Shown: positions 17,436-20,757 of the stretch, piece by piece
How positions within the stretch are numbered: the stretch's first letter is position 1
Layout of the letters: every line of letters starts with the position of its first letter
From: Cellulomonas cellasea
GTDB lineage: Bacteria; Actinomycetota; Actinomycetes; Actinomycetales; Cellulomonadaceae
DNA: 64,000 nt
Assembly: GCF_006538745.1 (NCBI RefSeq)
Contig: NZ_BJLR01000041.1
Coordinates: 39,081 to 103,080 of the forward strand
Direction: 5' to 3'
The notes under the pieces: generated by a model
Told to the model about the DNA's origin: nothing
Databases searched by the model: none
What the model saw: only the letters and a program-made list of their open reading frames with translations
Translations under genes and position numbers: made by a program

Positions 17436-18341
17436 TCAGGTGTCGTGCGCGCGCCGGGGCGGGAGCGGGACTCGGTCGAGGTCGTCGGCGGCGGTGATCT
17501 GCGCCCCGGGCGCCGCCGCCCGGGCCTCCTCCAGCAGCGGCGCGACGTCCACGTAGCGCGACGAGAAGTGCGTGAGCACCGTCGTCCGCGCGCCGGACCG
17601 CGCCGCGAGCGCGCCCGCCTGCGCCGCGGTCAGATGCAGGTACGTCTCGGCGAGCTCCGCGGTGTCCGCCCCGAACGTGCTCTCGACGAGCAGCAGGTCG
17701 ACGCCGTCCGCGAGCTGCTCCGCGCCCGCGCACTCCGCGGTGTCCATCACCACCGCGACGCTCTGCCCGCGCCGCGCGACGCTCACGTCCGCGAGGCGCA
17801 CGCCGCGCAGCTCGCCCTCGCGCTGCAGCCGGCCGACGTCCGGACCGCTGATCCCCGCGGCGGCGAGCCGCTCCGGCACGAGCGACCGGCCGTCGGGCTC
17901 GATCAGCCGGTACCCGTAGGTCTCGATCCGGTGCCGCAGCGCGACGACCTCGAGCCCCTCGGCGATCTCCCCCGGTCCGCCGTGCGGGCGCAGCCGCAGC
18001 TCGAGCCCGGGGGTCGCGAGGCCCACGAGCGCGCGCACGACGTCCTCGCCCGACGCCGGGTAGTGCAGCTCGACGGGACGCTGCACGCCGTCGAGGACCA
18101 TCCGCGAGAGCACGCCCGGCAGGCCGTAGCAGTGGTCGCCGTGCATGTGTGTGAGGCAGATGCGCGTGATGGCGGTGGCCGGGACGCCCGCGTGCGTGAG
18201 CTGGCGCTGGGTCCCCTCGCCCGGGTCGAACAGGATGCCGTCCTGGTGCGGCGCGCCGTCCCAGCGCAGCAGGTAGCCGTTGTGGTTGCGGGTCCGGGTC
18301 GGCACGTTCGACGACGTGCCCAGGACGACGAGCTCACGCAC
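17436..18341 (-). CDS. rnz: Ribonuclease Z
   Basis: 301 aa from GTG 18341, which has GGAGG 6 nt upstream; an in-frame ATG at 18455 would add a Pro-rich tail and is rejected. Metallo-beta-lactamase fold with zinc motif HMHGDH (His65, His67, Asp69, His70), PGEGTQRQ near 40 and C-terminal THFSSRYVD. RNase Z cuts the 3' trailer of tRNA precursors to create the end for CCA addition. Members vary in substrate (arylsulfatase-like proteins share the fold), but motif set and length favour RNase Z. Confidence 0.88.
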   Translation of the reverse strand: MRELVVLGTSSNVPTRTRNHNGYLLRWDGAPHQDGILFDPGEGTQRQLTHAGVPATAITRICLTHMHGDHCYGLPGVLSRMVLDGVQRPVELHYPASGEDVVRALVGLATPGLELRLRPHGGPGEIAEGLEVVALRHRIETYGYRLIEPDGRSLVPERLAAAGISGPDVGRLQREGELRGVRLADVSVARRGQSVAVVMDTAECAGAEQLADGVDLLLVESTFGADTAELAETYLHLTAAQAGALAARSGARTTVLTHFSSRYVDVAPLLEEARAAAPGAQITAADDLDRVPLPPRRAHDT

Positions 18342-18441
18342 GGGTTCCTCCGGGGTGCGGCCGGACGGGACCGGCACGGGGTGGGTCGAGGTGTGATCGG
18401 GCGGCGGTGCGGTGCGGGCGCCGCTCGGCCGGGACGGGCGA

Positions 18442-18496: not shown

Positions 18497-20668
18497 TCAG
18501 CCCTTGACGCAGACGATCGTCCGCAGCCGCGCCACGACCTCGACGAGGTCGGTCTGCGCCGCGATGACGGACTCGAGGTCCTTGTAGGCCCCCGGGATCT
18601 CGTCGACGACCCCGGCGTCCTTGCGGCACTCGACGCCCGCCGTCTGCGCCGCGAGGTCCTCGACCGTGAACCGCTTCTTCGCCGCGGTCCGCGACATCCG
18701 CCGCCCGGCCCCGTGCGACGCCGACTGGAACGACGCCGGGTTGCCGAGGCCGCGCACCACGTACGAGCCCGTCCCCATCGACCCGGGGATGAGCCCCATC
18801 TCGCCGGAGCCGGCGCGGATCGCACCCTTGCGGGTGACGATCAGCTCCGCGCCGTCGATCTGCTCGGTCTTGACGTAGTTGTGGTGGCAGTTCCGAGTCA
18901 GGATGTTGTCCTCCAGCGTGAAGGCCTCGGTCTCCGGCACAACGGCGCAGTACACCTCCTCGACGTCATCCGTGATCTCCACGCTTCGGACGGTCCACCC
19001 CTTGCGCTCGACCGCGCCGCGACCCGTGGCGAAGCGCGCTCGATGCTCGTCCTGGACGAAGAAGTCGAGGTCGAGGTCGCTCCGCATGAACCCCATGACG
19101 TGCAGCTCCGAGTCGCGCCCGTCGATACCGCGACGAACCCGTGTGCGGATGCCGTAGGTGCCGACACCGATCGAGGTAGCCAGCGCTTTCACCGCCTCCA
19201 GGTGGTCACGTCGCGACGAGGACAGCGACGGGCGGCCGCTCTTGTCTACGTCACCGTCTGCTGCGAAGTAGCCCGCCAACCAGCCGTAGACGATGTCGGG
19301 GTGTGAACTCGTCGCGACCGGCGCAGTCTTCCACTCCGCGGGGAAGCCGTTGAGCACCTTCACCGAGCCGTAGTCCCGCACGCAGTTCGTCGTCAGACCC
19401 TCGAAGTACGGCAGGAGGGACTCGTCCTTGTCACCGCAGAAGATGGCTCGGGCGCGGGTCTGCTTGCCGCAGAGCGAGCCGTCGCCGAACACGAAGCCGC
19501 GAGCTACCGAAGCTCTGTCGACCTTCATCCCGGAGACCCGCGCCGGAAATGCGTAGGCGAGCCGGTCGCCAACACGAAGGTCCTGAGTCGTCGCCTCATC
19601 ACGCGCATGGGCGACCTTCGCTCGCAGGAGCCACCGGTGGTTCCCCGTGGCACGGATCACCTTCTCCTCGCCGTAGCGCCCCACCGTCACCTCGTAGACC
19701 CGCTGCTTGCCGAAGGACATGATCGGCGCCTTGACCCATCGGCCGCCTGTGGTGAGGAGTTCGTGAATGCCGCCCGCGAGCTCGGCGATAGGGAAGATCC
19801 CGGCTCCTGTCAGCACACGCGTCTCGCCCGCGAAGCAGTTCACACCCTCGTCGAACGTGATCTCCCGCTCCGGGAACGAGTCCCGCACGGCCTGCACGAC
19901 GAGCGCCATCATCACCGCACGCGAGCGCGCGGCGTACTCCTGCGCCCACCACAGGTCGTTCAGGTACGCGTCCATCTGCGGCGTCCCGGCCAGGAACACC
20001 GCGAGCTCGCGGTCGACGATCCGCTGGTTGTGCTCGAGCGTCTTGGCGATCGCGACGTGCCGCTCCGCGAGCTCCTTGCCGATGTTGCGCGAGCCGCTGT
20101 GCAGCTGCAGCCACACCTGGTCGGACTCGTCGAGGCAGAGCTCGATGAAGTGGTTGCCGCCGCCGAGCGTCCCGAGCTGCTTGCGCGCCCGGGCCTCGAG
20201 CTGCTGGACCGTGCGGTGCAGGCCGCCGAAGCGGTCCCAGAACGCGTCGGCACCCTTGAGCCGCTCCCGCCCCGCCGAACCGTTCACCGGCCGGAGCCGG
20301 CGCAGGTCGACGGGCTCGTCGTGCGCGTGGAAGCCCACCGGGACGGCCTGCTCGATGCGCGTGCGGATCGCGTGCAGGTCGTCGGGCAGGTCCGCGGCCG
20401 TCAGGCTCGTGCGGACACCGATCATCCCGCAGCCGATGTCGACGCCGACGGCGTTGGGGCTGACCGCGTCGCGCATCGCGATGACGCTGCCGACGGTAGC
20501 CCCCTTGCCGAGGTGCACGTCGGGCATCACGCGCAGGCCCTCGACCCACGGCAGCGACGCGATGTTGCGCAGCTGCTGGAGAGCCTGCGGCTCGACCTCG
20601 TGCTCGTGGGCCCACATCAGGGTGGGCGCGGCGGTTCCGGCCAGGGCGACCGGGAACGGGCTGGACAT
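18497..20668 (-). CDS. rtcB: RtcB 3'-phosphate RNA ligase precursor containing an intein
   Basis: 723-aa precursor; removing residues 278-593 leaves a 407-aa RtcB of usual bacterial length. Start 20668 is preferred over the adjacent ATG 20671 because AGGAGG then sits 5 nt upstream. RtcB motifs in order: MPDVHLGKG, VDIGCGM (Asp77, Cys80, Mn ligands), GGGNHFIE, LHSGSRNIG, VN|CHHNYV (interrupted at the bar) and SHGAGRRMSR with the guanylylated His. RtcB joins 2',3'-cyclic phosphate or 3'-phosphate RNA ends to 5'-OH using GTP, acting in RNA repair or tRNA splicing. The interruption lies beside a metal-binding His, so the enzyme should be inactive until the intein is spliced out. No archease gene is nearby. 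Confidence 0.93.
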   Translation of the reverse strand: MSSPFPVALAGTAAPTLMWAHEHEVEPQALQQLRNIASLPWVEGLRVMPDVHLGKGATVGSVIAMRDAVSPNAVGVDIGCGMIGVRTSLTAADLPDDLHAIRTRIEQAVPVGFHAHDEPVDLRRLRPVNGSAGRERLKGADAFWDRFGGLHRTVQQLEARARKQLGTLGGGNHFIELCLDESDQVWLQLHSGSRNIGKELAERHVAIAKTLEHNQRIVDRELAVFLAGTPQMDAYLNDLWWAQEYAARSRAVMMALVVQAVRDSFPEREITFDEGVNCFAGETRVLTGAGIFPIAELAGGIHELLTTGGRWVKAPIMSFGKQRVYEVTVGRYGEEKVIRATGNHRWLLRAKVAHARDEATTQDLRVGDRLAYAFPARVSGMKVDRASVARGFVFGDGSLCGKQTRARAIFCGDKDESLLPYFEGLTTNCVRDYGSVKVLNGFPAEWKTAPVATSSHPDIVYGWLAGYFAADGDVDKSGRPSLSSSRRDHLEAVKALATSIGVGTYGIRTRVRRGIDGRDSELHVMGFMRSDLDLDFFVQDEHRARFATGRGAVERKGWTVRSVEITDDVEEVYCAVVPETEAFTLEDNILTRNCHHNYVKTEQIDGAELIVTRKGAIRAGSGEMGLIPGSMGTGSYVVRGLGNPASFQSASHGAGRRMSRTAAKKRFTVEDLAAQTAGVECRKDAGVVDEIPGAYKDLESVIAAQTDLVEVVARLRTIVCVKG
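18890..19837 (-). mobile_element. In-frame intein with LAGLIDADG homing-endonuclease domain
   Basis: 316 aa, precursor residues 278-593. Block A is CFAGETRVLT with nucleophile Cys278; block B is RATGNHRWLL. Two LAGLIDADG-like helices are GFVFGDGSL and WLAGYFAADGDVD, both keeping the acidic residue, so the endonuclease may be active. Block F reads EVYCAVVPETEAF and block G NILTRN followed by extein Cys594. The usual penultimate His is Arg and the usual block F His position is Glu. By eye, base composition is less GC-rich than the flanking rtcB halves, consistent with horizontal arrival. Confidence 0.9.
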
Positions 20669-20757
20669 CATGACCTCCTTGGGAGAGGCCGACAGTAGGG
20701 CGCGGCGCCCACGGGGTCGACGTCAATATCGTCCGTCGGCGGCCCGCTGCCCGCGCG

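Follow-up and report, generated by a model that had tools for sequence, protein, structure and literature searches.

The rtcB gene of Cellulomonas cellasea lies in a stretch of 64,000 nucleotides (assembly GCF_006538745.1, contig NZ_BJLR01000041.1, positions 39,081 to 103,080; hereafter the window) and encodes an RtcB protein that is interrupted in frame by an intein of 316 amino acids (aa) in which residues of two intein classes stand together. The intein begins with Cys1 and has the TxxH motif of class 1 inteins, and it also carries the complete Trp-Cys-Thr triplet (WCT) of class 3 inteins. It is real, well formed and probably mobile, and is predicted to splice. An earlier sequence-only reading overlooked the full triplet alongside Cys1; the interest of the element is this two-class signature, not its unusual end and not a role as a switch. 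With moderate confidence we propose a mobile homing intein that splices most likely from Cys1, in a class 1-like manner, with Cys297 replacing the usual Asp and probably serving as a relay.

The insert has the marks of an intein. Its removal leaves a continuous host protein, blocks A, B, F and G are present together with a HINT fold, and both the start CFAGETRVLT and the end ILTRN can be read. Both LAGLIDADG helices keep their acidic residues (Asp119 and Asp194), as in a homing endonuclease of that type. The structure model, with a mean predicted local distance difference test score of 95.1, is a confident prediction of a HINT-plus-endonuclease fold and matches PI-PfuI along 302 residues.

Class 1 and class 3 residues in one intein family

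The hallmark of class 3 inteins is a triplet of Trp at B:12, Cys at F:4 and Thr at G:5 (PMC3196547, PMC7891396, PMC6195587). The window intein has all three residues, as Trp69, Cys297 and Thr314, and in a hidden Markov model (HMM) alignment Cys297 pairs with the Asp that the Ssp DnaB intein (1mi8) has there. Under the definition in PMC7891396, which demands that there be no Cys at position 1, it is not a class 3 intein because Cys1 is present. Under that in PMC5222942 it would count as a class 1 intein, residue 1 being Cys, and a linear thioester is predicted. Cys1, one of the residues (Cys, Ser or Thr) that class 1 requires at this position, is conserved, and the usual but non-defining class 1 features, Asp at F:4 and a penultimate His, are absent, with Cys297 and Arg315 in their places.

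Local references, 11 class 3 DnaB inteins and 28 class 1 inteins, were cut from genomes by patterns that imposed a first Ala and a final THN on the former and a first Cys and a final HN on the latter, so that these features carry no weight. All 11 class 3 references have DxxH, the Trp (as HxW) and the block F Cys, and all 28 class 1 references have TxxH and a block F Asp without that Trp. In the window intein Cys1 and TxxH agree with the class 1 references, and the Trp, Cys and Thr with the class 3 references.

The same combination recurs in relatives. A search with the intein region alone matched 1401 proteins, and 100 of the best 120 bear the RtcB motif CHHN, the window's own included (this motif is the host label, so the partial RtcB rows P0011, P0102, P0106 and P0109 count as 'other'). 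Thr B:7, His B:10, Trp B:12 and Cys F:4 are each found in 100/100 of these RtcB-type rows and Cys1 in 98/98 that align there, while G:5 is Thr in 89, Val in 8, Ser in 2 and Leu in 1. Residue 1 of P0004 is Cys by one alignment and His by another. A scan of named genomes gave 80 loci, mostly Actinomycetota by title, of which 16 carry the RtcB motif and 58 a primase-type junction, a label that rests on the residues following the junction. Cys1 is present in 78/80 (it is missing from the stand-alone copy L053 and the fragment L114) and Cys F:4 in 80/80. Viral contigs yielded 79 loci, some repeating one intein, with 64 distinct complete inteins among them; residue 1 is Cys in 78 and Ser in 1, and Cys F:4 occurs in 77/77 evaluable loci. 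One of the two patterns used in each locus scan included the block F Cys, and the loci found without that pattern (44 viral, 58 genome) all have it. A second protein search, with the Ser1 viral member L168 as query, added 114 new rows from the best 120 of 473, L168's own included, with Cys1 in 113, Thr B:7 and Cys F:4 in 114, Trp B:12 in 113 and Thr G:5 in 106.

Pooling brought in 393 rows and, with rows cut at one end left out, 356 distinct inteins were counted. Cys1 is present in 353, Thr B:7, Trp and Cys F:4 in 354 each, and Thr G:5 in 324; in the two rows without Cys F:4 the record is incomplete at its ends. Cys1 is paired with the block F Cys in 351/356, whose hosts include RtcB, DNA primase and ribonucleotide reductase, and all five residues are present in 323/356. 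The near-invariance of both cysteines suggests that both matter. The window intein belongs to a large family that we did not find described in the literature.

Some members stand out. L053 (Rhodococcus sp. Leaf247) is a 358-residue open frame made up almost wholly of intein. Position 1 is Gly, Ala replaces the Thr of TxxH, the terminal Asn has become Asp, and there is no +1 nucleophile; the block B His, the Trp and the block F Cys are retained, and L053 is apparently a stand-alone, decayed relative. L168, in a terminase-like host on a viral contig, is the sole virus-borne member with Ser1 among those seen, and has Gln for the Trp at B:12 and the block F Cys. Further members occur in metagenome-assembled genomes of Woesearchaeota (L106) and Clostridia (L107), at 36 and 37% identity, and a related intein (39%) lies in a plasmid MobF relaxase of Skermanella rosea (NZ_CP086115.1, 48372-49298).

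The residues at the end of the intein were what the sequence-only reading took as its non-canonical mark. It had read Arg315 in penultimate position and Glu304 at the block F position correctly, both usual histidines being absent; the end does not set this intein apart. In the RtcB-type rows the penultimate residue is Gly in 47, Arg in 36, Ser in 14, Gln in 2, Lys in 1 and His in none, and the block F position is His in 92, Glu in 4 (the window's and three more), Ala in 2, Gln in 1 and Arg in 1. Penultimate residues of the named-genome loci are Gly (72), Arg (4), Ser (2) and His (2), and those of the viral loci Gly (50), His (8), Ser (7), Met (6), Arg (5) and Lys (1), with 2 unaligned. Glu recurs at the block F position of viral loci (22/79), beside His (30), Gln (14), Gly (6), Asn (3), Tyr (1) and Ala (1), with 2 unaligned. 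Rows from the L168 search have penultimate Gly in 65 and His in 36. Overall a penultimate His is found in 41/356 distinct relatives, and both histidines are gone in 37/64 distinct complete viral inteins and in 87/356 of the pooled set. A private loss in the window copy was therefore rejected, the loss being widespread in the family. According to PMC5050341, the penultimate His is often missing from class 1 inteins of mycobacteriophages, and an intein with Gly there splices fully and is slowed by introducing His. The same paper reports strong conservation of this His among the actinobacterial class 1 inteins in InBase, a set from which the window family departs. AceL NrdHF, without either histidine, splices in minutes (PMC7891396). 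Because such inteins splice well, neither Arg315 nor Glu304 points to a defect, and loss of the two histidines, common here, is no mark of a damaged or regulated intein.

Other routes to a class were tried. A tree was built from 110 splice-domain columns and 68/140 rows, with the eight diagnostic columns left out; it is unrooted, includes one class 3 lineage, and its bootstrap is unsettled. On these few columns the 11 class 3 sequences form their own long branch (2.81, 100/100) outside the window family, and the class 1 set falls on one side of another branch (94/94), around which the window family has no settled place. With so few columns, half of the rows and a single class 3 lineage, the tree was rejected as a means of placing class 3. 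Fold ranking was likewise set aside as a class decider, since class 1 and class 3 structures tie. The single intein sequence matched no solved structure, and a profile search gave 7 matches, of which the best was an intein endonuclease (4.8e-4) and the others weak or unrelated; this search was set aside.

Host gene, empty sites and probable mobility

The rtcB frame (start ATG at 20671, stop at 18497-18499, 724 aa, minus strand) is the sole match to itself in its 4.73-Mb genome. The insertion site is VN/CHHNYV of RtcB, where the slash marks the junction, and the intein occupies exactly the coordinates that the sequence-only reading gave it (Table 1). Its placement of the junction beside a conserved active-site His was also borne out. 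His597, the second His of CHHN, aligns with the His of the HN pair in the solved RtcB chains 2epg and 8odo, a metal-binding residue in RtcB. The earlier count of Cys594 and a 407-aa ligase fits a start at the second of two start Met residues; from the first ATG the nucleophile is Cys595 and the exteins sum to 408 aa. On the precursor, Pfam finds RtcB (1.2e-120) and, above its cut-off, LAGLIDADG_3 (1.1e-7). Intein_splicing (PF14890) reaches 21.2 bits, below its cut-off of 35.8, and a PF14890 search of the window's genome at E 0.001 gave no match, despite the intein present. Surveys based on PF14890 may overlook this family, given 21 bits on the window intein.

Table 1. Positions in the window of the rtcB precursor gene, its parts and the residues discussed
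Feature	Position	Strand	Basis
rtcB precursor gene	18497..20671	minus	open frame; 724 codons plus stop; PF01139 RtcB 1.2e-120
N-extein, residues 1-278, ending TFDEGVN	19838..20671	minus	runs straight into C-extein in intein-less relatives
Intein, residues 279-594, 316 aa	18890..19837	minus	sequence, relatives, fold model
C-extein, residues 595-724; Cys595 (+1 nucleophile) then HHNYV	18500..18889	minus	sequence
Cys1, class 1 nucleophile position (block A)	19835..19837	minus	sequence; Cys in 98/98 aligned RtcB rows (2 further rows gapped)
Block B: Thr64 and His67 (TxxH), Trp69 (B:12, first WCT letter)	19631..19648	minus	invariant in 37-row alignment A2
LAGLIDADG motif 1, GFVFGDGSL, Asp119	19472..19498	minus	within PI-PfuI-matching stretch; outside Pfam hit
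LAGLIDADG motif 2, WLAGYFAADG, Asp194	19253..19282	minus	PF14528 E 1.1e-7, precursor residues 462-510
Cys297, block F position 4 (second WCT letter; usually Asp in class 1)	18947..18949	minus	HMM alignment; invariant in A2
Glu304, block F position normally His	18926..18928	minus	sequence
Thr314 (G:5, third WCT letter), Arg315 (penultimate), Asn316 (terminal)	18890..18898	minus	sequence

Comparison with related strains, which the sequence-only reading had proposed, revealed empty sites. In the genome set of the host's family (n=221), 122 genomes match the precursor at E 0.001, the window's own included. The nearest relative found, G107, of the same genus, has an uninterrupted RtcB whose two halves show 97% and 98% identity. 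Junctions were inspected at 29 other family loci (L002-L030, G107 among them), and all 29/29 are intein-less at the equivalent point. Given this uninterrupted near-twin, the 29 intein-less loci and the 1401 proteins matched by the intein alone, the insert is not a chance feature. The +1 residue is Val in 27/29 of these loci and Cys in 2/29 (G107 and L006). Host alleles of this RtcB subfamily thus differ in their ability to support splicing and, because a +1 nucleophile is needed, most family alleles could presumably not hold a working intein unless the codon came along.

Between the window and G107, 16/120 bases differ within 60 of the site versus 37/1107 elsewhere (p 1.7e-5), and this raised divergence fits the pattern expected of co-conversion. 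A sample of the phylum contained intein matches in 7/396 genomes. Besides the window's own, these were a primase intein (42%), a deaminase-like one (36%) and four matches that were partial. The tree joins the window intein to RtcB copies from Micromonospora, Amycolatopsis and Nocardia (4 rows, 100/97), and among the matches listed the closest intein by identity is P0002 (60%), which is outside the tree. A close phage source was rejected, as the best annotated-phage match is 31% (Thermobifida phage P318 ribonucleotide reductase) and the best viral contig 44%. GC content is 66.4% in the intein and 71.6% in the exteins, and at third codon positions 84.5% and 97.6%. Base composition and the intein and extein identities given below fit lateral spread by homing, short of proof. 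Because its presence is sporadic, its endonuclease motifs are intact and a near-twin lacks it, we regard the intein as a homing element rather than a switch, and one that likely arrived by homing.

Proposed splicing from Cys1 and its alternatives

In the proposed route Cys1, activated by Thr64 and His67 of TxxH, would make the first thioester, Cys297 would pass or position the acyl group on its way to Cys+1, and Asn316 would cyclise without aid from a penultimate or block F His. Before splicing the precursor may fairly be expected to lack RNA ligase activity, and the endonuclease would cut intein-less rtcB, for which the G107 gene offers a candidate target. Several observations weigh against this proposal. 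The conservation of two cysteines is silent on which acts first, and a start at Cys297, as in class 3, would fit it too. In the decayed L053 the block F Cys survives the loss of Cys1, the terminal Asn and the +1 nucleophile. The Thr314 position is less strict, with Thr in 324/356 and Val in 18, and the homologue lists, the best 120 of 1401 and of 473, under-sample remote members. As to homing, the dip in identity beside the site leaves undecided which strain changed, and the window flank DEGVN is more family-like than the DEATN of G107. Across 82 RtcB precursors, the window's own included, median identity to the window is 55% for inteins and 48% for exteins, a closeness that looks lateral but is biased, as the proteins were picked by intein similarity.

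A tenable but distinctly less probable account is a plain class 1 intein in which Cys1 does the chemistry, the block F Cys, Trp and Thr are structural and Cys297 is non-catalytic. Cys1 and TxxH are conserved across the family in keeping with it, and class 1 inteins with Cys at F:4 are known as a scattered (polyphyletic) group (PMC3196547). A structural residue should, however, have drifted to Asp, Ser or Ala by 28% identity, yet Cys stands in 354/356; L053, which keeps the Cys though not for ordinary splicing, weakens this drift argument. More doubtful is a class 3 mechanism in which Cys297 attacks the N-junction directly and Cys1 is vestigial. The complete triplet lies at the class 3 positions, and HxW with the block F Cys is common to all of the extracted class 3 DnaB inteins. 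Phage Catera Gp206 reportedly combines Ser1 with WCT, Ser1 being dispensable and the block F Cys attacking directly. Additionally, AceL NrdHF is a working class 3 intein that also lacks both histidines (PMC7891396). Under such a mechanism Cys1 should vary freely, yet it is nearly invariant; block B reads TxxH here versus DxxH in all 11 class 3 references, and these references keep to their own branch outside the window family in the tree of few columns. We consider it improbable that this is a two-nucleophile family whose N-junction can be opened by Cys1 or, equally, by the block F Cys, a living bridge from class 1 to class 3 whose paired cysteines would form a redox latch. Were this so, Cys1 could be lost without loss of splicing as Cys297 already works, which would answer the objection of dead intermediates, and oxidation would keep the RtcB RNA-repair ligase as a precursor.

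The sequence-only reading had suggested a regulatory switch. This would mean slow or conditional splicing that keeps RNA ligase off until a signal arrives, and we hold it very unlikely. The site does adjoin a conserved active-site His, and oxidation halts splicing of a mycobacterial class 3 intein via its catalytic Cys (PMC6195587). However, neither the near-twin strain nor any of the 28 further family loci inspected has the intein, the endonuclease motifs are intact, the splice residues look intact, and a phage intein with penultimate Gly spliced completely and accumulated precursor when given His (PMC5050341). We see no sign that delayed RtcB activation serves control. The chance is slimmer still that Glu304 and Arg315 betray a decaying intein that splices poorly after losing both assisting histidines, as the frame, Cys1, TxxH, Asn316 and Cys+1 are all intact, the same double loss is frequent among viral and pooled relatives, and this is the only RtcB found in its genome.

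Known inteins and the origin of class 3

RtcB inteins exist in archaea. Inteins at the same N/CHHN site of RtcB (for example P0053 and P0002; loci L038-L051), mostly of 311-343 residues, also have Cys1, TxxH, a non-His penultimate residue and, in most, the W-C-T residues; they differ in block F, where the Glu of the window intein recurs in only 3/99 other RtcB rows. DNA primase inteins (58/80 loci by junction; P0114-P0118 and P0120 by Pfam) share the residue signature at 36-48% identity but occupy another host and another site (N/CFGC or N/CHGC). Class 3 inteins (mycobacterial DnaBi1, Catera Gp206 and AceL NrdHF) resemble the window intein in Trp B:12 (Met in AceL NrdHF), Cys F:4 and Thr G:5, whereas they have no Cys1 and mostly no TxxH, both of which the window family conserves. 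The gp41-1 intein, of class 1, shows some features reminiscent of class 3 and is regarded as a possible class 1/3 transition (PMC12245125), but it has Asp at F:4 and a penultimate His where the window intein has Cys and Arg. The Bethlehem RDF intein of a mycobacteriophage, compared by description only, is treated as class 1, has a penultimate Gly and splices well (PMC5050341).

The NCBIfam model NF052663 (RtcB_rel_intein2) also describes an intein in RtcB. The window precursor scores 419.6 bits with it, below the curated cut-off of 1050, and 110 of 1150 bits with NF038162. The NF052663 intein evidently lies before profile position 311, the match of intein-less RtcB to 311-626 being unbroken, and the model was rejected as an existing description of this site because its intein lies earlier in RtcB. 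In the best-scoring NF052663 genome (L247) the intein sits at VDI/.../C, with Pro as its first residue and Cys in block F.

No paper on RtcB inteins or on this family was found in a search judged mostly by titles and with subscription papers largely uncovered; PMC3203893, which mentions intein and RtcB, is not about an RtcB intein in its available portion. The two-class idea is partly in print, since PMC3196547 notes Cys at F:4 in some class 1 inteins and PMC12245125 presents gp41-1 as a class 1/3 transition, on different grounds. One proposal derives class 3 from a phage intein after loss of its first residue (PMC3196547), while grafting the triplet on a class 1 intein without Cys1 gave almost no splicing, which was taken to mean that class 3 did not arise directly from class 1 (PMC7664689). 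A family with phage members that joins Cys1, TxxH and the triplet in 323/356 relatives makes this dispute testable by point mutants.

Directly downstream of rtcB, on the same strand, lies a gene of metallo-beta-lactamase fold (17439-18377), whose RNase Z likeness rests on a weak PF13691 match below cut-off. Four RtcB precursors (P0029, P0058, P0089 and P0108) carry two inserts, one at an early VDIG/CG site, which reads VDGG in P0108, and one at N/CHHN; both sites are conserved active-site motifs.
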